Source: a virus. From it: a DNA stretch of 22,081 nt. The stretch lies in IMG/VR virus record IMGVR_UViG_3300027782_000399, positions 1 through 22,081 of that record; one strand, written 5' to 3'. Positions 5,719-18,200 of this stretch are shown one piece after another (positions within the stretch are counted from its first letter, which is position 1; each line of letters begins with the position of its first letter). The notes under the pieces were generated by a model. That model was not told the origin of the DNA. It was given only the letters and a program-made list of their open reading frames with translations, and ran no database searches. Position numbers and translations under genes: made by a program.

Positions 5719-7305
5719 TTATAATGTTTGCAAAGAAACACCGTTTCCGGCAGCAGACAAAATTGCAGCCATATCACTTTCAAAAGTAGCAGAAACTGCA
5801 CTAGTAATTACTTCACATACATATTGATCATTATCAAACATGCTAGATGGATTGTTAAAACGTGGTACATTATGTACAACCATGTAACGGTAGTAAGAAT
5901 TGTTACGGTTAACACCAAATACAGCATTACCATTTAAAATCTCACGAATACGTGGATCATCATTCCAATGATTCTGCATGTAACGCTCAGATAAAATCAA
6001 ATCACGTAATACAGTTTCACCAAAACCTTCACCTTGCTTAGCAGCTTGTAATTCAGTTACACAAGTTCCAGAAAAAGTACAAACCTCTCCAATTTGATCA
6101 ACTTCAGCAGCAATAACTTTAATTGGCTCTTTATCAAAATGATCAGTTGGTTGGAAAGAACAATCACCAAACTTAGTATCAACATAAGCACCATTAATAA
6201 CTAAACCAGCTTTGTTAGAAGCATCAGGAGTAGTATCTTCTACAAAAGAAGTCCAAGACATAGCTTTAACTGCATAAGCAGCAGCACCAGATCCAGAACC
6301 ACCAGAGAATGTAACAGCAACATTACCAGATGCAGTATAACCTGAACCAGATGTAGTAATTGTAATACCTGTAACAACAGTACTAGTAAGAGTTGCAGTT
6401 GCAGTTGCAGAAGAACCAGCATAAGCAAATGTTACTGTGCCAGAAGCAACAGGAGTACTATTAGTATGTACAGGAGCAGTACCAGATCCACCACTAGTTC
6501 CAGCTACAGTTACAGTATATAAATTACCTAAATAAGCTACTTGGTCATTTAATGCATAAGCAGTAGTTGCAGCAAACTGAGTACCTATAACTACAGTTGG
6601 AGCAGAGGAATAACCAGTTCCACCATTAGTGATTTTAACTTCAATAACTTTACCAATGTTAGTAGAGGTAGGGTTAACATATGCAGTGTAACTAGCACCA
6701 GTGTTAGTACTTACATAAACTACAGGGTTAATAAATTGATTAATACGAGGATCTTCAGCTAAACTTTTAGCCCAACCAACCATAACAACACCTGGATCAA
6801 TACTAGTTTGACCAGTAGTACAACAGCCAGTATAGTAATCAGCAACATAATAAGCATTACGACTAAATAAACGCATAGCTGGAGAACCTTTAATATCTAC
6901 ACGTAGATAGTAGGTTTTATCACACTTATAAGTTTTGTTACTACAAGCAGCATAAGGTACATTGTTTAAACCAGCAGTTAAACCAACAGCAACAATACTA
7001 TTTGTAGCTGTTTTTGGAACAACTTTAACAAATGAACTGATGTACTTAGGATTAATAGTTTTAGATTTTGTAGACTCAGCATAACCACCATGATAAGGAC
7101 CAATCTTATCATTTGTAGGATTTAAACTAGAAGCAGCAATAATGAAATTGGTTCCAGTTGTTGCATTTAAGTTTACGAAAGTTGAGGCGTTGTAAAGACC
7201 AAAGTTACCAACTGTGGTCAATTCACCCGCAGTAGTTCCTGCACCGGACTTTTGGTAAGTACCAGTTCCTAGGAATACTTTTTTGAAGGCATGATTAAAA
7301 TACAT
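5719..7305 (-). CDS. Virion structural protein with inserted adhesive-type module (528 aa)
   Basis: The backbone comprises residues 1-204 and about 347-528. It includes MYFNHAFKKVFLGTG, a Cys-containing YYLRVDIKGSPAMRLF region (121-162) and a C-terminal region ending in YYRYMVVHNVPRFNNPSSM and beyond. Between them sits a roughly 140-residue low-complexity insert. Its order is a GGTGYSSAPTVVI repeat (228-240), a YALNDQVAYLGNLYTV segment (250-265) like small carbohydrate-binding or adhesion domains, and a second GSGYTASGNVAVTFSGGSGSG repeat (320-340). Such inserts decorate exposed loops of phage shell and tail proteins. An A-rich leader and a strong terminator bracket the gene, giving it its own expression unit and suggesting a high-copy product, perhaps a tail or decoration protein. 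The precise role is not recognised. Confidence 0.65.
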   Translation of the reverse strand: MYFNHAFKKVFLGTGTYQKSGAGTTAGELTTVGNFGLYNASTFVNLNATTGTNFIIAASSLNPTNDKIGPYHGGYAESTKSKTINPKYISSFVKVVPKTATNSIVAVGLTAGLNNVPYAACSNKTYKCDKTYYLRVDIKGSPAMRLFSRNAYYVADYYTGCCTTGQTSIDPGVVMVGWAKSLAEDPRINQFINPVVYVSTNTGASYTAYVNPTSTNIGKVIEVKITNGGTGYSSAPTVVIGTQFAATTAYALNDQVAYLGNLYTVTVAGTSGGSGTAPVHTNSTPVASGTVTFAYAGSSATATATLTSTVVTGITITTSGSGYTASGNVAVTFSGGSGSGAAAYAVKAMSWTSFVEDTTPDASNKAGLVINGAYVDTKFGDCSFQPTDHFDKEPIKVIAAEVDQIGEVCTFSGTCVTELQAAKQGEGFGETVLRDLILSERYMQNHWNDDPRIREILNGNAVFGVNRNNSYYRYMVVHNVPRFNNPSSMFDNDQYVCEVITSAVSATFESDMAAILSAAGNGVSLQTL

Positions 7306-7365
7306 AATTTTATTTTTTTATTTGTTTATAAATAGATACACTAATATAATAGTGAATATTTTTGA

Positions 7366-7788
7366 TTATTGCAAGAAAATTAATTTATACTTAGCAGAAT
7401 TAATGCTAGACTTAACATTATCTAATTCATTAATGATTTCTGAATAAGGCATAATAGCTTGCAAGTTATTTACCTTATTATATAAAGAACGTAGATAAGA
7501 GACTGCCTCATCTTTTGTTTTAATAGTTGGTAAACTTACATCTCCATATGAAAGTAATTTTTCTGAGGCACCTTGATAAGCTTCTGCAATAATATCAGCA
7601 TGCTCTGGTAATGCATCATAAATTACATTTAAAGCAGTATGAGCAGCAAAAGAACCTACACCAGTTACTAACAAATGTGCAATATGTAATTTAGTTCCTG
7701 CATTCATCATCTCAACTACTAAGTCAGATGTTGCTTTATCTAAATTATTTTCAGAGCCATTAGAAGGGCGTTGTAATTTTTGTATCAT
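7366..7788 (-). CDS. Dps/ferritin-like four-helix protein (140 aa)
   Basis: Residues 35-73 align without gaps to the ferroxidase region of E. coli Dps. H38, H50, D65 and E69 fall at the spacing of Dps H51, H63, D78 and E82; the fifth ligand, D67, is replaced by N54. LHIAH, the small Gly-rich linker GVGSFAAH and AEAYQG are also Dps-like. The rest is helical, fitting a four-helix bundle, and 140 residues is slightly short for Dps. Known relatives bind iron and protect DNA from peroxide; short phage proteins of this fold exist, but their role is unclear. The gene sits 5 bases after a connector gene inside the virion operon, so a structural or packaged role is plausible. Iron oxidation activity is uncertain because one ligand is changed. 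Confidence 0.65.
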   Translation of the reverse strand: MIQKLQRPSNGSENNLDKATSDLVVEMMNAGTKLHIAHLLVTGVGSFAAHTALNVIYDALPEHADIIAEAYQGASEKLLSYGDVSLPTIKTKDEAVSYLRSLYNKVNNLQAIMPYSEIINELDNVKSSINSAKYKLIFLQ

Positions 7789-7793
7789 TTTCT

Positions 7794-8495
7794 TTAATTA
7801 TTTCTTTCAGCATTTTGTGTGCCACGTGAAAACTGATTTACAGATTCAATATCTCCAGCAAGAATACTTGCAGTCTCATCTATTAGTAACTCTACAATAT
7901 CATCTTTAAACTCACAGATAACATTAGTTGCAGAGGTAAGTCCAGTGTATGGGTCTATTGCACCAGCAATTTGTATATAAATAGGTTTTCTATAATATGT
8001 AAGAATTGGGTCAACAATAGTAAAAAGGTCATCATGATAAATTTTTATCCTGTTACCCATTATTGTACAAAAAGTTTCACCCCATTCAAAACTAGGTTTC
8101 CTAAACTCATCACTTAATAAACTAGCTATGTTAGCTTCTTCAGCTAAATATACAGTCATTGAATCAGCAGGACAACATTTAGATAATGCATCAGTTGATA
8201 TCCTTTTATATTGTAGATAATCAGCTGGTAGCAAATTAGATTCAAAATACCCTTTTTTATTTATTCCAGTAATTGGGAGATCTAATAATAAAATCTGTAT
8301 ATCATCTATACGTCTTTTAGATCCTTCATCACCCTCACGAAAAACATTACTACCATGTAGTTGTCTTCTAACCCATTCTAATTGAGCTTTGTTAAAAGCT
8401 TCAATAATTTGCCAGGCCTCAAGATTATCATAATCATTAGAGGCTAACTTATTAAGTCGCTGCTTAATTTTTAACTGAAGTATATCGTTATTCAT
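7794..8495 (-). CDS. Putative head-tail connector / neck adaptor (233 aa)
   Basis: The N-terminus is helical (IKQRLNKLASNDYDNLEAWQ, then IIEAFNKAQLEWVRRQL), the middle is beta-rich with YYRKPIYIQIAG, and the C-terminus is a helix with DDIVELLIDETASILAGDIE followed by a polar SRGTQNAERNN tail. This helix-beta-helix architecture and the length resemble portal-adjacent ring or adaptor proteins of podovirus-like and crAss-like phages. It lies between head genes and the tail/fibre genes and follows a hairpin that may weaken transcription from upstream. Assignment rests on architecture and synteny; no catalytic motif is expected. Confidence 0.55.
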   Translation of the reverse strand: MNNDILQLKIKQRLNKLASNDYDNLEAWQIIEAFNKAQLEWVRRQLHGSNVFREGDEGSKRRIDDIQILLLDLPITGINKKGYFESNLLPADYLQYKRISTDALSKCCPADSMTVYLAEEANIASLLSDEFRKPSFEWGETFCTIMGNRIKIYHDDLFTIVDPILTYYRKPIYIQIAGAIDPYTGLTSATNVICEFKDDIVELLIDETASILAGDIESVNQFSRGTQNAERNN

Positions 8496-8504
8496 ATCTA
8501 ATTA

Positions 8505-8536
8505 ATTATGGGGATACTGTGTTATATCCCCATAAT
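8505..8536 (-). terminator. Perfect 12-bp intergenic hairpin (weak terminator or processing site)
   Basis: ATTATGGGGATA (8505-8516) and its exact complement TATCCCCATAAT (8525-8536) form a 12-bp stem with an 8-base loop, in the 57-base gap between the 337-aa gene and the connector gene. The minus-strand 3' flank is TAATTAGAT, not a clean T run, so partial termination, RNA processing or 3' end protection is as likely as full termination. Confidence 0.55.
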
Positions 8537-8552
8537 ACTACTTCATATTAGG

Positions 8553-9566
8553 TTAATCTTTCCAATGTTTTTCTACCTTCTCTATAATTTTGTCAGAAAT
8601 ATCCTGGTTTAAAGGATTTTTCATATACTCAATTATATCAGCTGGTGTTCTTCCAAGCATTGTACTAGATTCAAGGTGATAGATAAATCCGTCACTCTTA
8701 CTGATTATATATTTATAAAAAGAGGCATCTTTAACAACAGCTCTGAGTTTAAGGTTTGTCATATCCTCATTAGCTAATGATAAAAACTTTTCTGCTGTTT
8801 TAGTTTTATCTGTCTCAACTGTCTCACCATTAATGTATTTATCCATGTTATCATAAACAATATCATTAGGTGTAGACTTTTTATACTGTGCGCTGTCAAC
8901 ATCTAAAACTTTAGCAACATAAAATAATTTGCCTTGGTTCTTATCAAACATTTTTTGTAACTCAGACAATGCTTTGTTACGTAATTTTTTACTCTCTGTT
9001 TTAATGGTTACAGTCTCTTCAGCTCTATCTAAATAAAACTTTGGTGGTACTGCTCTACGTCTTGCATCATCATAATTTTTAGATACAATAGTAAAACCAT
9101 TTGCCTCAATTGCATAAAGCTTAATAAGATCATAAGGATCTTTACTTGGCTCTAAGAATAAAGGATCATTTCCACATCTTAATGCAATCCTACTCCAAAA
9201 TTCATCATTGTCTGGTTTAAGAAGTTTTATCTTATTCCAAAAATCTGGGTCTTCAGGATTAACAACGTTAGCTGCTAATTCTTTCTCTAATTGGGAAACA
9301 GTTCTTCTAATCTCTTTAATTTTGGCTTCACGTTCATCATCTGGTAAGAATTTTACTTCAGGAGCAAATTCATTTAGCCCAGTTACATAACGCTTAATCC
9401 CATTAATTTCAAGACAAGCTAGTTGTTCCTCATGGAATACCCCATCAAACAGGGATAGACCATATTTCTCAAGACCCATATTATTGATTTGTGCATCAAA
9501 ATAAGGGCGTACACTCACACTACTTTTTTTGTTTTGTGAATACTTTTCTACAATTGTTATACTCAT
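8553..9566 (-). CDS. Conserved-type virion-region protein of unknown function (337 aa)
   Basis: No family is recognised with confidence. The sequence is soluble and charged, with no signal peptide or membrane segment. A helical or coiled-coil stretch with DEREAKIKEIRRTVSQLEKE lies near residues 76-95, followed by PEDPDFWNKIKLLKPDNDEF. The C-terminus holds FIYHLESSTMLGRTPADIIE, then YMKNPLNQDISDKII, and ends in a charged helix. It lies between the capsid-decoration candidate and the connector gene, with hairpins on both sides, which fits a head-associated or cargo protein present at its own level. It could also be an assembly chaperone or internal virion protein. Confidence 0.5.
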   Translation of the reverse strand: MSITIVEKYSQNKKSSVSVRPYFDAQINNMGLEKYGLSLFDGVFHEEQLACLEINGIKRYVTGLNEFAPEVKFLPDDEREAKIKEIRRTVSQLEKELAANVVNPEDPDFWNKIKLLKPDNDEFWSRIALRCGNDPLFLEPSKDPYDLIKLYAIEANGFTIVSKNYDDARRRAVPPKFYLDRAEETVTIKTESKKLRNKALSELQKMFDKNQGKLFYVAKVLDVDSAQYKKSTPNDIVYDNMDKYINGETVETDKTKTAEKFLSLANEDMTNLKLRAVVKDASFYKYIISKSDGFIYHLESSTMLGRTPADIIEYMKNPLNQDISDKIIEKVEKHWKD

Positions 9567-10119: not shown

Positions 10120-11739
10120 TTAGAAGCTTCCGCCAGTAATAGGGTTACGCATAACAATTTTCAATACTTTAGTTGGATCTTTAACCCAAACTGCAGGCAT
10201 TGTTTGAGACATCATTACACGGTATCCGTTGAAGTTACCAGAAGACTGGAATCCTTGGCTACGGCCCATATAATCCATAGTTCCGTTTTGGTAGAACCAC
10301 TTCAATTGATTATCCCAAGATAATTTTAACAAGTAAATATTCTCGTTTACGTTATCTGTAATGTCAAAGATAATGAAATTATATGAACTTAAAGGATGAC
10401 CATCAATCAAGGGGTTTTCAATATCGTTAGTGTGCAAGTTGTCAAATGCAGGGTTAAGCACAAACTTAACGTTAGCCAAGAAAGGAATTACATAGCTGGT
10501 GTAAGCAAATCCAAAGTTCAAGTCCATTCCTTTACCAGTAATAGCTCCTACTTCAGATGCATTAATAACCAAACCACTGTTAACCGCTTCTTTCTTAATA
10601 GCCTCGTTAACCAACTTCATACCACCCAAACCAGTTTGAACAATCAACTGACGCTTAGGATCTGGACCTTGGAAGTCAACTTTACCTACGTAGAAGTTGT
10701 ACAACTCAGCACGGAACATTTCCAAAGTGAAACTAGATTTGTTATAGATACGTTTGAAGCTGTTATCCAACTGCTTCCAAAGACCTACTGACAAACGGAT
10801 ATCATCTGGACCATCTTGCTTAATACGTCCACCTTGTCCCCACATTAAGTAGGTCTCAATGTCATTAGCAATTTTGCTCAAGTGAGCAGCTTCCATAGTA
10901 GTTAAGAAAGTCTTACTTAACTGACCATTGTCAAATGCACGTTTAACTGCATCTTTACCCATAGTCTGTACCATAGACTCCAAACTAGTAATAGAAGGAT
11001 CCATAGATTTTTCAAAGTTACGCCAGATTTCTACAACAGGTACAGTACCATCAGCTTTCATTCCACCCTTTAACATCAAGTCAGCACGACTAGAGATAGA
11101 GTAAGATACGTGAGCTTCAGCACCACCTACGAAATTGTAGAATTCACGGAAACCAGCACCATATTGTCCAATATCAGAGAAACGCTCACCGTATTCACCA
11201 CGAGCAGAACCTTTACGGAAAACTTTAGTACCAGCTGCTAAGTATTTGTTATCCAAATATTTTGCATTGTCATTGTTTACTAACTGAACAGTGTAAATGA
11301 AACCATCACCTGTAGGAAGAATATCACTAACAGTTACATACATTTCTAAACCATTGTACTTATCATAAGTGATGATATCACCATGTCCAAAAGAACGCTT
11401 GTTTAATTTAAGTTTGAATGTAGTACCATCAACACCTTTAGTAGCATTTGAAGATTCAATATCTTCTACAATGTAAGGAAGATCTTGAGCAACAGGAACC
11501 TGCCACTTGTACTCTCCACGAGCATTGTCTACAGAGATGATGTTTTTTCCACCAAAACTAGAGAATTGATACAAGGGCATTTCAACTTTCTGAGCCATAG
11601 CCCATAAATCTACTGGACCCATGTCCATAGGTTCACTGCTTTTCAGCATGTTTACGAGGTGATATGAATCTACGTTTGAGCTAGCTTGGTAGCTGGTATC
11701 ACGTAGAAATATACCATTGTTTAAAACTGGAGTTGCCAT
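10120..11739 (-). CDS. Major capsid protein (539 aa)
   Basis: The product should form the icosahedral shell. The sequence is soluble and evenly composed, with no membrane segments. It is opened by MATPVLNNGIFLRDTSYQ and has long mixed alpha/beta stretches such as GMDLNFGFAYTSYVIPFLAN and KFVLNPAFDNLH in the C-terminal half, as expected of an HK97-type shell protein that is larger than usual. It stands in the canonical order portal, scaffold, capsid, and its codon use looks more constrained (fewer rare A/T codons) than its neighbours, as for a highly expressed gene. The leader is a long AAATAAATAAAATAAATAATT stretch with no Shine-Dalgarno. A hairpin follows the stop. I do not see individual catalytic residues, and the call rests on synteny, size and general resemblance. 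Confidence 0.8.
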   Translation of the reverse strand: MATPVLNNGIFLRDTSYQASSNVDSYHLVNMLKSSEPMDMGPVDLWAMAQKVEMPLYQFSSFGGKNIISVDNARGEYKWQVPVAQDLPYIVEDIESSNATKGVDGTTFKLKLNKRSFGHGDIITYDKYNGLEMYVTVSDILPTGDGFIYTVQLVNNDNAKYLDNKYLAAGTKVFRKGSARGEYGERFSDIGQYGAGFREFYNFVGGAEAHVSYSISSRADLMLKGGMKADGTVPVVEIWRNFEKSMDPSITSLESMVQTMGKDAVKRAFDNGQLSKTFLTTMEAAHLSKIANDIETYLMWGQGGRIKQDGPDDIRLSVGLWKQLDNSFKRIYNKSSFTLEMFRAELYNFYVGKVDFQGPDPKRQLIVQTGLGGMKLVNEAIKKEAVNSGLVINASEVGAITGKGMDLNFGFAYTSYVIPFLANVKFVLNPAFDNLHTNDIENPLIDGHPLSSYNFIIFDITDNVNENIYLLKLSWDNQLKWFYQNGTMDYMGRSQGFQSSGNFNGYRVMMSQTMPAVWVKDPTKVLKIVMRNPITGGSF

Positions 11740-11774: not shown

Positions 11775-13007
11775 TTAAAATCTTTTAAAAATATTTGCTT
11801 GTCTTGGGATCTTACGCTGTTTAGGTTCTTCCTCTCTATCTTCAGGCATTGTACTAGAAATCTTTCTACCCTGCTCTGTTTTAAGTTGTCTTACAGTGTT
11901 TTCAACCACTTTATTTTTGCCTTGCTCCATGATCTTTGTCTTGTATCCGTCTGGATCAGCCAATAACCACAATGCTTCAGCTACTAATGGGTAGTTAGGT
12001 TCTACAAATTGATGTTTCTCTAACAGGTGTCCCAATAAGTTTGTATTTCTTCCTGAGATAGATGGGTAGTTAGGTTGTACAAGACCAGCATATAACATTG
12101 CTTGGGTCTTCTTGTCTAACTTAATACCAGCTAACTCTGAAGGTTTGAGGGCCTCATATACATTATCCATGTATGCTGATGCTGCTTGCTCTTGTTGTGC
12201 TTTCATTTGCTCTTGTTCAGCAATCTTCTGCGCTACAATAGACTCTTGCATCTTGTCCAACTTTGGTTTAAATTTATTAGCTTGTTGCTCTAATTTACCC
12301 AAGTCTTTCCAAGTTACAATCTCCTCATCAATGTCCTCATCATTGCCAAATCCAGTGGCACGCAAGTATGAACGTACAATTTGTTCTTGATCCATCTCAT
12401 CTGTTGGATCTAAACTACGTACCTCTTCTACTTGAGCTAATGCACTGAATAGACCTTTAAGGTCATTACCCCCGTTTGCTACATACTGTGCAGCATACTG
12501 GAGCTCTTCAGGAAGTGCTTCAAAGAACTCTTTCGGAGTTTGCTCTTTAATTGCCCGCTCTTTTTCTTCAAAATTTGCTTGCAAGAGTTCCTTCCAATCT
12601 TTAAGAGAGTAGTCTTCCATTGGTTTCTCATCTTCAAAACCAATTAAAACACCCTCTTCAATTAACTTAGAGAAGGTTTCCACCATCCCACTCTTATCTA
12701 CTTTAGGTCTGCCACCTTTTGGTAACTCACCTTCTTGATCAATTAAATCATCAACATCAGTTGTTAATTCTTTAAGAACATCATCAGCAGTCTGAGTAGA
12801 AAGAACTGAATTTCCATCCTCATCTTTTTCATCCTCTTTATCTAAGAACGTTAAATCAGTTTTAGGAGTAGAGAAAAAATTGGGTTTCTTCTCTGCTTCT
12901 GTTGGTAGCACGATACTATCGGCTCCCGGAGCTCCACCGAAGATATCATCAATATTGATATCTACTTGTTGTACGGTGGTTTGCTCATTTGGTTTTGCAT
13001 CACTCAT
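11775..13007 (-). CDS. Scaffolding-like capsid assembly protein (410 aa)
   Basis: The N-terminal roughly 100 residues are acidic and probably disordered (LDKEDEKDEDGNS, DVDDLIDQEGELP). The middle is helical with a Glu/Gln-rich coiled coil (EQEQMKAQQEQAASAY, around 265-280). The last residues are basic (PKQRKIPRQANIFKRF), like the capsid-binding tail of scaffolding proteins. It lies directly between portal and capsid genes, where phages usually encode scaffold or head protease. No protease motif is visible, so scaffold is preferred. The 108-base gap before it is A/T-rich, with a weak AGTTT/AAACT hairpin and no promoter I can support. Confidence 0.7.
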   Translation of the reverse strand: MSDAKPNEQTTVQQVDINIDDIFGGAPGADSIVLPTEAEKKPNFFSTPKTDLTFLDKEDEKDEDGNSVLSTQTADDVLKELTTDVDDLIDQEGELPKGGRPKVDKSGMVETFSKLIEEGVLIGFEDEKPMEDYSLKDWKELLQANFEEKERAIKEQTPKEFFEALPEELQYAAQYVANGGNDLKGLFSALAQVEEVRSLDPTDEMDQEQIVRSYLRATGFGNDEDIDEEIVTWKDLGKLEQQANKFKPKLDKMQESIVAQKIAEQEQMKAQQEQAASAYMDNVYEALKPSELAGIKLDKKTQAMLYAGLVQPNYPSISGRNTNLLGHLLEKHQFVEPNYPLVAEALWLLADPDGYKTKIMEQGKNKVVENTVRQLKTEQGRKISSTMPEDREEEPKQRKIPRQANIFKRF

Positions 13008-13115: not shown

Positions 13116-15863
13116 TTACTTTTTCTTATTGTCTGGCTTGTCGTATTTATTTTTATTTGTTCTAGCAATTTCTAATTGTTTATTAGCAATTTCTCTTTGA
13201 GAGGCTAGCTTTTCACGCTCAATTGACATCTTATCCATGTTAACTGCTTTTTGTGTAGCAGCAGATTCTTTCTTTAAATCCATCTGTTGGTTAAACTCGT
13301 CACTTTTACGGATATCTTTCAGTGCATCTTGATAATCAGATTGTTGATTCTGATTAATATCTACAGTAGACCCAAAACCGGCAGACCTAATTTCAGCAAT
13401 AACAATATCATTCTGTCTATTCTTCTCATTCTCATCTGCTTCAAATTGCATCTTCATCATAGCTTCTTGATTCTTAGCTTGTAATGCTTGCTCTTGCATT
13501 GACTGCTGTTGCTGCATTTCTTGTTGACGTACTGCTTGTTGTTTTTCTTCAGAAGACTTAAGGATGTGTGTAACTTCAGAGATAGACTCTGCCTTCATGA
13601 TATTACCTAAGTCATAGATAGAAGCACCGGCAGTATTGTTTGTAAGTGCCAATTGCTTTAACTGTTCTAATGTAGCTCTATGATTAGTTTTAGTAGTACA
13701 GAAAATATTAAAATCTCTAAGTAATAAATCTGTACCATTCATTTCAAAATTAACCTTCTCATCATTTGTAGTAATGTACTGCAATCTGATGGATGGTTTA
13801 GTTGAATGATAGTATTGAGCTAAGTCTGTACGCATCTGGTGCACACGAGGCATTAAGTAATCACAGTGATTAATAAAATATGTCTCTGTTTGTGCATAGG
13901 AGTTTGATACAGCTATTCTTACGCCTGTAGCGGTAGCTTGTTCCACTTGCTCTCCCAAACGCTGTGGTGTAATCCCTATGACCTCAAATGCTTGCTGTTT
14001 AAAATAGTTAGCTAATTGAGTTCTAGACATCAAACGTTGTGTCTGTTCTAAGTTTAATACCTGGTAATGTTGGAAGTTAAGAGCATTTTCAGTGTTAGTA
14101 ATAGAAGTATCTAAAGGTAACATCTGGAAGTTCTTCATTGCAACATAAGCTTTTGCCAAGTTGTTCTTTCCCCAATCTTCCCCCAATGAGTGTCTAGGTA
14201 AAGCATTCTGATCTAACATGATCACTGTACCTAATTCATCTACAAGAATATCCGCAATCTGGTTATTAACAATGTTATAACCTATCTGGTATGGTTTCAT
14301 TAAATCTACTAAAGATGTAGACTTAGTATTTCTATCAGAGAATACAGATCCTTCCACTGGTAATTTACAACCATACAAAGTAGCATCCCCTTTAAATTGA
14401 AAAGGTACACGACCTACATTAGCTTTGTTAATACCAATATAAATAGGGTTAATACCACTAGCATTATTATTCATGCCAAAGTATGCAGGATTATTAGGCC
14501 CAATTTTTACACCACCCCACACTTCATTAATCCAAATCCAATCAACATGCTCACCAGCAATTAAATTCTCTTTAGTTTTATTCTTAAATAATGTAGTATC
14601 GTATATAGGCTTTTGAGTAATCTTATATGACTCATCTACAACATCTTGTATAACCTGACCAACCTCATCAATTTTAGTTAAATGACCTACCTTACGTTGT
14701 GACTTCCAATAAATATGAGAGACACGTAACATATCTGTATTTTGATAATCAGTGTAATCCTCTGATTCAGACATGATGTAACTTACAATATCATTACCGG
14801 CTGTACTATTCTGCTCCCATACTGACATAAACTGTCTGTATTGTAGAGAAGGCATATTAGTATTCCATTCATGTGATTTAGTAGCATCATAGTATGAACC
14901 ATCATTCTGCATACCCTGTAATGGATATCCAGCTGCTCTTGTTGGATAAACAGCCTCTAAAGATTCTAATTCTACGTCAGTTAATAAATATCCATACTTG
15001 TCAATAATTCCAGCTACAGTAAGTAATTCAATTTTACCTACCCAGTTACCCTGAGAAATATACCTTATATCAGGAGATTTATGGTAGAAAGTAACTAATG
15101 GATTCCATAACTCTACTTCATAATCATCCTCATTCATCTTAAAGTGCCAGAACTCTCTATCTGTAATTAACATATCACGAAAAGCTCTCTCCTCTAATTC
15201 ATCCATTTTAAATCTCTCCTCATCCACACGCATCTGATGTTCAGCCCATTCCTCTAACATAGACCTATAGTCTTTCTTAAAGAATTGCTCAATCTCTGGT
15301 AATGATTTAAGATTTTCTGGAGCTAAAGCTTTCTGAATTTCAGGGTCTTCCATATCAGCACCCTGTTCAATCATACTCATAACCATTTTACGTTCAGCAT
15401 CAGATAATAATCTTTGCTCAATCATGGCTCTTTTCTGTTCTAGTAATTCATTATAAGAGATTTCATCTACAGTCCTAAAACTAACCCTTGTATTTCTTTT
15501 AGCAAATTCTGCTACTAATACATTAATTACGTTAGGAATAATTGGGTAAAATTTTAACTCTAATGCTGACTGATCTTCTTTTGTAAGTACATCAATTAAT
15601 TCAGCATACTCAACATCCTCTTCAACAACATAGTCTGTCTTATCTATAATTCCTTTGGCAAGCTTATAGTTCTTAGAAAGCCTTCTAGCATTTCTACGTA
15701 ACTGCTTCATACCCTGCCATTCTAACCAATCAAGATTATGCGCAGCCCAATCATCATCCTTCTCTTTTCTAGGAATAAATTGAATGGGTTGAGTAAGGGT
15801 ACTCATTTTATTGTATTCTGCTTTAGCCCCATTTTTGAGCTGCATAGCATTATATAATTGCAT
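13116..15863 (-). CDS. Portal protein (915 aa, crAss-like type)
   Basis: Forms the dodecameric DNA entry channel at one capsid vertex. Support: position just after the large terminase, and the N-terminal core with YPIIPNVINVLVAEFAKRNT (107-126), a region typical of long portals in Bacteroidota phages. Other support comes from internal EHVDWIWINEVWGGVKI and QLANYFKQQAFEVIGITPQR, and a C-terminal Gln/Glu/Lys-rich helical barrel-like tail (about 770-915) with KQQAVRQQEMQQQQSMQEQA. At 915 residues it is much longer than common portals; the extension is the low-complexity helical C-terminus ending in KYDKPDNKKK. Two starts are possible: ATG at 15863 or the internal ATG at residue 20 (MSTLTQ). The first overlaps the upstream 48-aa gene by 14 bases and is kept provisionally. 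Confidence 0.85.
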   Translation of the reverse strand: MQLYNAMQLKNGAKAEYNKMSTLTQPIQFIPRKEKDDDWAAHNLDWLEWQGMKQLRRNARRLSKNYKLAKGIIDKTDYVVEEDVEYAELIDVLTKEDQSALELKFYPIIPNVINVLVAEFAKRNTRVSFRTVDEISYNELLEQKRAMIEQRLLSDAERKMVMSMIEQGADMEDPEIQKALAPENLKSLPEIEQFFKKDYRSMLEEWAEHQMRVDEERFKMDELEERAFRDMLITDREFWHFKMNEDDYEVELWNPLVTFYHKSPDIRYISQGNWVGKIELLTVAGIIDKYGYLLTDVELESLEAVYPTRAAGYPLQGMQNDGSYYDATKSHEWNTNMPSLQYRQFMSVWEQNSTAGNDIVSYIMSESEDYTDYQNTDMLRVSHIYWKSQRKVGHLTKIDEVGQVIQDVVDESYKITQKPIYDTTLFKNKTKENLIAGEHVDWIWINEVWGGVKIGPNNPAYFGMNNNASGINPIYIGINKANVGRVPFQFKGDATLYGCKLPVEGSVFSDRNTKSTSLVDLMKPYQIGYNIVNNQIADILVDELGTVIMLDQNALPRHSLGEDWGKNNLAKAYVAMKNFQMLPLDTSITNTENALNFQHYQVLNLEQTQRLMSRTQLANYFKQQAFEVIGITPQRLGEQVEQATATGVRIAVSNSYAQTETYFINHCDYLMPRVHQMRTDLAQYYHSTKPSIRLQYITTNDEKVNFEMNGTDLLLRDFNIFCTTKTNHRATLEQLKQLALTNNTAGASIYDLGNIMKAESISEVTHILKSSEEKQQAVRQQEMQQQQSMQEQALQAKNQEAMMKMQFEADENEKNRQNDIVIAEIRSAGFGSTVDINQNQQSDYQDALKDIRKSDEFNQQMDLKKESAATQKAVNMDKMSIEREKLASQREIANKQLEIARTNKNKYDKPDNKKK

Positions 15864-16007: not shown

Positions 16008-18200
16008 TCATCTTAAATTTTTAAATGCTCGTTTTGGTCTTTGCATACCATTTGAAGAGGCACTTTTGCCAATATGTCTAAACGCTCCTACTTTTAATTT
16101 ATACAAATCTTTTGACTTATCCAAACTTTCAGGAGTTACTTCTCTACGTTTTAAATATCCACGGTTTGATTGTTGTATTTTAGCAAAGGCAACTAGAGCT
16201 GCAAATGCTACAAGTCTATCCACGTTTAAGCCATCTCTGTAAGCTAACATCTCTTTAATTAACATAGGATCTGGTATTCTAGATACACCATATGTTGTCT
16301 TTACCACAGTGCCATCAGTCTTATAATCATGATCGGTTTCCTCCCTTAAAAATTCAATAGCATAAGAGAGAAGGTGAGCTTTAAATAATGTCCCTGTGTT
16401 CCTCCAACCATACTGTTGATATACACTAGCATTACTACCAATATCTTTTAAAAATAATATCTGATCTTTAGTTACAAGGTAACGCTGCTTTCTTTGAGAG
16501 ATCATATATTGAATAAACAAAGAAACGTTATTCTCCACTAATGTCCAAGCATTATACCACTCAATAATTAACTCTAATCTCTCATGTGTCTTTTTAATAT
16601 CATCAAAACGACCACACCATGCAGCTACAATTTTATCCTGCTCTATATGAGTTTTCTGCTCTCCACCCTCTTCTCTAGATACTTCAACAGGGGCTTTATA
16701 AACAAAAATAGAACAAAGAGAGTCAGAGGTAGTAGTCTTTCCTTCAGAAACCGGGTCAATACTTGCATAATACATTCCAAAGGTAGGATCTTTTTTAGGT
16801 CTTTCCCATACTACTAAACAACCCGTTTTGTCCTCCGTCTTTTTAGAGATGGGGAACTCATTGATAGGCAATTTGTTAGAGTTTTTAACCTCTAATTTAC
16901 CATGCTCATCTCTATATAACTCTAGTAATTCATAAGGATATTCTTTGTCCTCAATCTTTCTTAACTGTGCAGCAAGCAAGTGTACAGAAAATACAGACTC
17001 CCTTCTAAATGCAAATGCCTCTTCAATGTTTGTAGGTTTCTGAGATATGCGTAACTGATATTTATCTGGTTCAATCTCTTTCTTCCACCTAAGCCTCTCC
17101 TCTTTAATAGCTGCTAATGCTTCAACTACTAATGAGTTACCATATTCATCTACATATGGCATCATTGACCATTGTTCTGGAATAAATAATCCTGCTGTAC
17201 CTATGCTTCCTTTAGCATCTAATAGATTAGTTTCTACAGCATAAATATCATTAGCCTCTGGATTCATAATTAAATTCTTCAATGGTTCACACTGATCCAG
17301 GTCACCCACAGATCCAGCTGCAATAAATACACCGGTAGTAATCATACCAGAGGCCATAGCAGGACGTAAGTATTCATAGGTTTCCCCCATCTTAGGAGCA
17401 ATACCTGCTTCCTCATGAAAGAAATATTGACAAGGACCACCCACACCAGATGTTGCAGACTTCTCAAAAGACATACCTTGTATAGTACCTTTTAATCCCA
17501 CCTCAGTTTTCTTATTCCCTTTTCTTACCTCAATCTTTTGCTGCCATAGCATAACCTTATCTGGATTCATAGGTCTATACCATGCAGTATGTTCATTTAA
17601 AAAAGATGAATACTCATCTAGGAATTTCCAAGTACCTTTATCATTTATATAATCCTTAAGGGAAGCACCTATCTTAAGGGTAACACCCTCTTCAAACCAT
17701 AATGAATTAATTAACTTACCAGCATGAAAGTATGAGGATGCAATCTGACGTTTCTTTAGGATAGCTACATGTTTGTAATATAGTTCAGCCAATATCTCGT
17801 ACAGAGCCATGTGGTACTGAGCATCCCGGACTTTAGCAAATCCAAACTTCTTCTCTTCCTTATCATAGATAGGGAGAAAGTTTAACCACATGTAATAATC
17901 CCTAGTTAGATACCAGATGTGTTTACTATCTTTATACAACACCCCATTCCTACACTTCTTCTTTTGGTCATCCCAATAATAGATATAGTCTTTGGATTTA
18001 AATGGTGCTAGTGTATAAAAACCTAATTTATTAAAAGTTCTAGCCTCTTTATTAAAGAGGAGGGCTACTTCATTGAAATCATATTGACCTGGTTCTTTAA
18101 ATAGTAATAGAAGATAGCTTCTCCATTCCTCATTAGAGGAGAAGGTAGAAACACTCCATACACCATTCTCCCAAGTCGGGATTTCAATAATTTCACTCAT
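16008..18200 (-). CDS. terL: Terminase large subunit (TerL)
   Basis: The packaging motor: an ATPase plus a nuclease that cuts concatemers. The ATPase half shows a variant Walker A-like stretch, KKRQIASSYFHAGK (149-162), a Walker B-type hydrophobic run ending in acids, CQYFFHEEAG (257-266), and the coupling segment FIAAGSVGD (292-300). The nuclease half has RNase H-fold acids: D482 in YASIDPVSEG, E556 in LVENN and D661 in NVDRLVAFAAL. At 730 residues it matches the long terminases of crAss-like and related phages. The start overlaps the 68-aa gene by 8 bases, so translation is coupled, and the portal follows at once. The exact Walker A lysine is not assigned with certainty. Confidence 0.9.
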   Translation of the reverse strand: MSEIIEIPTWENGVWSVSTFSSNEEWRSYLLLLFKEPGQYDFNEVALLFNKEARTFNKLGFYTLAPFKSKDYIYYWDDQKKKCRNGVLYKDSKHIWYLTRDYYMWLNFLPIYDKEEKKFGFAKVRDAQYHMALYEILAELYYKHVAILKKRQIASSYFHAGKLINSLWFEEGVTLKIGASLKDYINDKGTWKFLDEYSSFLNEHTAWYRPMNPDKVMLWQQKIEVRKGNKKTEVGLKGTIQGMSFEKSATSGVGGPCQYFFHEEAGIAPKMGETYEYLRPAMASGMITTGVFIAAGSVGDLDQCEPLKNLIMNPEANDIYAVETNLLDAKGSIGTAGLFIPEQWSMMPYVDEYGNSLVVEALAAIKEERLRWKKEIEPDKYQLRISQKPTNIEEAFAFRRESVFSVHLLAAQLRKIEDKEYPYELLELYRDEHGKLEVKNSNKLPINEFPISKKTEDKTGCLVVWERPKKDPTFGMYYASIDPVSEGKTTTSDSLCSIFVYKAPVEVSREEGGEQKTHIEQDKIVAAWCGRFDDIKKTHERLELIIEWYNAWTLVENNVSLFIQYMISQRKQRYLVTKDQILFLKDIGSNASVYQQYGWRNTGTLFKAHLLSYAIEFLREETDHDYKTDGTVVKTTYGVSRIPDPMLIKEMLAYRDGLNVDRLVAFAALVAFAKIQQSNRGYLKRREVTPESLDKSKDLYKLKVGAFRHIGKSASSNGMQRPKRAFKNLR

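Follow-up and report, generated by a model that had tools for sequence, protein, structure and literature searches.

The window that we analysed is a 22,081-base fragment of an IMG/VR virus with its genes on the minus strand, and its source phage belongs to a crAss-like freshwater lineage. Along that strand, genes for the terminase large subunit (16008..18200) and a P22-type portal protein (13116..15863) are followed by a 410-aa gene and the gene for a crAss-type major capsid protein (10120..11739; Pfam Crass_capsid, 4e-32). After the capsid gene come a 144-aa gene, a conserved 337-aa gene (8553..9566) with a homologue in Leptolyngbya phage Lbo-JY46, a 233-aa connector gene (7794..8495), the DUF5856 gene that is our subject (7366..7788), and tail genes, of which the next downstream encodes a putative tail/virion protein of 528 aa and is a member of a conserved trio (5719..7305). 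Judged by its capsid protein, the nearest named relative of the phage is Lbo-JY46, at 28% identity.

Upstream of most genes in the window (e.g., 7789-7813), the leaders are rich in A and, for the most part, show no clear Shine-Dalgarno motif, a pattern often seen in Bacteroidota. Separately, our scan of genome contigs found a relative on a single short MAG contig, L188 (RFPL01000035.1). This 7.9-kb contig was binned in a Sphingomonadaceae MAG and bears the phage cassette with a Dps at 87% identity; it could be either a mis-binned phage contig or a hint of the host.

The DUF5856 gene starts with ATG and encodes a predicted Dps-like mini-ferritin of 140 aa. Considering this length, its position 5 bases after the connector gene (the spacer is 7789-7793), and its close homologues in many contigs, the open reading frame is genuine. 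The initial annotation had called the upstream gene a connector, and this holds: the predicted fold of its product resembles the tail-barrel ring proteins of phicrAss001, matching three chains of 7qoj (D, E, and F) with E values from 7.5e-11 (TM 0.75) to 1.3e-9. We therefore refer to it as the ring gene.

The product of 7366-7788 matched DUF5856 (PF19174) with an E value of 2.5e-13 and 51.3 bits, relative to a curated cut-off of 34.6, and PHROG 858 with an E value of 2.9e-17. It contains the DUF5856 pattern H-x2-H ... S[YF]xxHxAL ... D-x3-E-x3-G ... D ... KL. DUF5856 was matched by 35 of 35 relatives, seven of which also matched Pfam Ferritin (E <= 0.01). The window protein had no PF00210 (Ferritin) match at E <= 1, and in five of the seven long contigs this family was found only under the cut-off. 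Because the PF00210 score was not reached, we file the window protein under DUF5856 and claim just that it "works like a Dps."

Comparison of a profile of the 35 relatives with the PDB returned NAP/Dps chains from 8e-7 and dozens of Dps chains. An AlphaFold2 monomer model from the 35-sequence alignment (pLDDT 88.6, pTM 0.81) contains four helices, at residues 13-40, 46-75, 92-112, and 116-138. When the PDB was searched with this model, the top matches were all Dps, with TM mostly at 0.63-0.75 and modest E values (~1e-3). Among viral models, the best matches were small phage proteins, with annotated Dps or DNA-binding proteins, some from crAss-like phages, further down. The initial annotation had proposed a ferritin/Dps fold that prediction of a four-helix bundle could check; structure prediction yielded such a bundle, and the profile comparison and the Dps proteins heading the PDB matches support the same assignment. 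On these models, the product is almost certain to have a Dps-like fold.

We also observed by fold a Dps-like four-helix domain in three "prohead protease" proteins of uncultured Caudovirales (A0A6J7WIS1, A0A6J7XDU5, and A0A6J7WPK9). If real, these fusions would be independent evidence of Dps domains entering proheads. Text searches returned nothing relevant on Dps combined with prohead protease and no papers on DUF5856.

For the metal site, the ferroxidase ligands in E. coli Dps numbering are H51, H63, D78, and E82, with D67 as the fifth ligand. A gapless match of these first four to H38, H50, D65, and E69 had been claimed for the window protein, and the spacing (12/15/4) is indeed identical. 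The corresponding codons lie on the minus strand at 7675..7677, 7639..7641, 7594..7596, and 7582..7584. The motif H-x11-H-x14-D-x3-E occurs once in the six frames of the window; a chance motif was ruled out by this single match together with the strong family scores.

Conservation of these His, Asp, and Glu positions in homologues, which the initial annotation had named as a check, proved complete. H38, H50, D65, and E69 were invariant in 106 distinct DUF5856 homologues drawn from the crAss-like lineage, from two unrelated groups of podoviruses, and from five further phages, as were H35, A52, Y57, G73, D123, and L136. H35 (codon 7684..7686, minus strand), where aligned NAP-type Dps proteins also have His, and D123 show the same invariance as the four ligand positions and extend the original list. 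Because these residues are invariant despite only ~30% identity between the groups, we conclude that selection on the Dps ferroxidase positions is strong, and the metal site is very probably under selection.

Residue 54 (codon 7627..7629, minus strand), at the D67 position, is Asn as initially noted, and thus the window protein lacks the acidic fifth ligand. Column 54 is variable across the family, being mostly N or G and otherwise D, R, Q, E, or A. The absent fifth Dps ligand is therefore a family trait, and N54 as a mutation of the window phage alone was ruled out. The substitution on which the earlier proposal of possibly altered iron chemistry rested is real, but it reflects a family-wide feature and not a change in this phage.

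The names given to this family suggest another function. A single 120-aa query found DUF5856 in 1351 phage records, and most of these give it as "hypothetical" or as a "starvation-inducible transcriptional regulator," the latter being the label of PHROG 858, and RefSeq names likewise favor a regulator of transcription. Pfam assigns no function to DUF5856. The predicted fold, however, is a plain four-helix bundle without a DNA-binding domain, and the conserved residues are those at Dps metal-ligand positions. The label looks like a misread Dps name that goes back to the phrase "DNA protection during starvation," and we give a transcription regulator hardly any credence. No DNA-binding feature was conserved across the family among the 106 homologues, in which N-terminal tails are group-specific and the P22-portal group is tail-less.

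Within PF19174/PHROG 858, which includes T4-type rI.-1 (= MobD.6), phiR1-37 g280, and Sajous1 gp217, the window protein has the same ligand positions. Relative to other DUF5856 members, its gene occupies a crAss-like virion cassette right after the tail-barrel ring gene, and an N-terminal K-x-x-R-P-like motif is present only in the crAss-like lineage. The A-B loop of this lineage is also about three residues longer than those of Sajous1, phiR1-37, and the P22-portal group. The closest cellular Dps proteins are the H. pylori and Campylobacter NAP (the profile match at 8e-7), which have in common with the window protein the four-helix fold and the H-x2-H, H, D, and E positions. Compared with cellular Dps, the window protein is shorter and is without an acidic residue at the D67 position, and its C-terminal half is hardly alignable by sequence to Dps proteins in the PDB.

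Two other types of phage Dps differ from the window protein in sequence and gene location. The proteins of C3 podophages (SU10 CDS67 and Privateer) are likewise Dps-like, but SU10 CDS67 is a member of PF00210 and not of DUF5856; it retains an acidic residue at the fourth position past the second His, and its gene lies with the middle genes. The gut crAss-like DpsA of cr106_1, annotated after phicrAss001, is a Dps-like protein of Crassvirales that shares the H38, H50, D65, and E69 positions and matches DUF5856 weakly (31.3 bits, under the cut-off). Unlike the window protein, it carries an acidic residue four positions past the second His, and its gene lies beside tRNA genes and away from the virion cassette; the protein falls outside the DUF5856 clade.

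The initial annotation had placed the gene in a virion operon, and relatives make the case for this location much stronger than was stated. In the crAss-like lineage, the order ring-Dps-tail is kept, with the DUF5856 gene immediately after the ring gene in 43 of the 45 loci that had enough sequence. In one exception (L003), an insert (7046-8000) separates the ring gene from a Dps gene further down; in the other (L015), a different open frame (12066-12892) follows the ring gene at the Dps place and the contig then ends. The gap ahead of the ring gene, counted from the 337-aa gene (8496-8552 in the window), ranges from 6 to 4146 bases in related loci. Because this gap varies so widely, the ring-Dps adjacency is not simply that of a frozen region. 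The gap itself may be a cargo hotspot within the virion cassette. Each of the seven long contigs (57-113 kb) has exactly one copy of the DUF5856 gene, and pairwise divergence of the Dps tracks that of the ring, capsid, and tail genes (Mantel r ~0.6, 0/999 permutations).

This adjacency to ring and portal genes, along with the family-wide loss of the fifth ferroxidase ligand, would fit a structural component of the neck or connector that recruited a ferritin fold and in which the metal site locks the subunit interface rather than oxidising iron. In Lbo-JY46, however, the ring and tail genes adjoin without a DUF5856 gene between them, and thus the gene is non-essential to this virion architecture. 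The virion cassette of cr106_1 is likewise without a Dps gene, and from these two cassettes we conclude that the neck does not need a DUF5856 protein. The occasional insert between the ring and Dps genes, as in L003, further argues against a structural neck component, which we consider improbable.

Proximity to portal genes recurs outside the crAss-like lineage. In two unrelated podovirus groups, in each of which portal identity comes from one member and annotated relatives, the DUF5856 gene lies directly after the portal gene in 93 of 93 testable loci. In the group with a Head-tail_con portal (PF12236), it begins 9-15 bases after the portal gene (16/16 loci), and in the P22-portal group all 77 loci that include the upstream side have it overlapping, or immediately next to, the gene before it. 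Phage DSL-LC05 likewise has the gene directly after its portal gene, and ctyzp037 has it between the terminase and portal genes. Other neighborhoods also occur: the gene adjoins rI and tk in T4-like phages (Krischvirus), adjoins the holin gene in P19250A, and lies amid DNA-metabolism genes in cta1H496. Because of these neighbors, a virion-gene neighborhood is not universal for the family.

In a tree rooted on SU10, with weak deep nodes, the crAss-like lineage groups with the Head-tail_con phages (98%) and separately from the P22-portal group; gut crAss DpsA branches outside the family (98%). Connector adjacency therefore either evolved repeatedly or moved together with the gene. Inheritance of the window gene from gut crAss DpsA was ruled out by the position of DpsA outside the clade.

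Virion association, as proposed in the initial annotation, is supported indirectly, through proteomics or annotation of family members in other phages. Sajous1 gp217 (MW021757, 154947-155300) is a DUF5856 protein (E 1.3e-28), and mass spectrometry of virions purified on CsCl detected it with 10 spectra, with the authors cautioning that low peptide counts cannot tell virion proteins from contaminants (PMC10892097); small proteins seen by mass spectrometry in virion preparations can generally be such contaminants. phiR1-37 g280 is also a DUF5856 protein (E 1.7e-22), and its record bears the note "phage structural protein"; two further phiR1-37 papers do not name g280. Dps proteins of other sequence types were found by mass spectrometry in virion preparations of SU10 (PF00210; PMC4281155) and Privateer (PMC7881722). 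By analogy with these phages, we lean slightly toward association of the DUF5856 protein with the virion in the window phage.

How such a protein might serve a virion has been addressed for Sajous1 gp217, which was predicted by Phyre2 to be a ferritin and proposed to act as a "ferrojan horse" (PMC10892097), with virion-borne iron in a ferritin-like protein exploiting host iron-uptake receptors at entry. Sajous1 showed no TonB or FeoB dependence in the single Salmonella host tried (PMC10892097). Furthermore, a Dps-type cage would hold iron inside and not display it, and the gene in our lineage adjoins a connector gene and not fibre genes. Use of iron-uptake receptors thus appears very unlikely to us, despite having been proposed for a member of the same family.

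The main rival to a virion-borne protein is an enzyme that acts as a protectant inside the cell late in infection without ever becoming part of the virion: by removing Fe(II) and peroxide as the host dies, it would let replication and packaging run to completion; a place among virion genes would then give just late timing and high expression. Several lineages place the family gene by lysis or DNA-metabolism genes, the cr106_1 DpsA gene lies near tRNA genes and off the virion cassette, and Benler et al. 2021 (PMC8008677) proposed such a role for gut-phage Dps and catalase genes. An intracellular enzyme nevertheless leaves unexplained both the connector-adjacent position in three unrelated groups and the finding of Sajous1 gp217 in virions and of phiR1-37 g280 annotated as structural. 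We view it as a serious alternative that is nonetheless rather unlikely.

We instead favor, at about an even chance for the whole, a model in which the late virion cassette has, as a constant member, a gene for a small Dps-like ferritin of DUF5856, which binds metal, is produced along with the virion, is probably carried by it, and spares DNA. Starting from the fold, the ligand conservation, and the gene order, which sequence and prediction provide, we infer that subunits would associate as in Dps, with H38 and H50 of one subunit and D65 and E69 of the next binding Fe(II) or another metal; H35 perhaps compensates for the absent D67 carboxylate, and iron oxidation may follow. The protein would be produced late, at the same time as the connector, and would remain attached to the virion or inside it, probably close to the neck or alongside the packaged DNA, where it may keep iron from peroxide and so spare DNA in assembly, transit, or entry. 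That the main benefit is to shield DNA against damage by iron and peroxide is plausible to us, at somewhat less than an even chance. More speculatively, DUF5856 proteins might be widespread virion-borne mini-ferritins that, in phages with short tails, dock at the portal or neck and bring iron chemistry, or a shell that scavenges iron, to the side of the channel through which the genome leaves; several lineages would each have recruited the gene on their own to a place next to a connector gene. We hold this generalization as doubtful.

That phages encode Dps has been published (PMC8008677), as has the virion-associated predicted ferritin Sajous1 gp217 (PMC10892097), which we here place in DUF5856. 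Our analysis adds a crAss-like lineage with a DUF5856 gene fixed in its virion cassette and the recurrent adjacency of DUF5856 genes to portal or neck genes. As judged from aligned sequences, it also adds an invariant ligand set across DUF5856 with a family-wide loss of the fifth ligand. Invariant residues at Dps metal positions, combined with the repeated portal or neck adjacency, provide a testable question about a virion ferritin: is a ferritin carried by virions, shielding packaged DNA from iron and peroxide? If true, a virion ferritin would be relevant to the debate over what virus-bound iron does in water. Since family members have been detected in particle preparations purified from other phages, a protein that handles iron may accompany phage virions or be required along with them.
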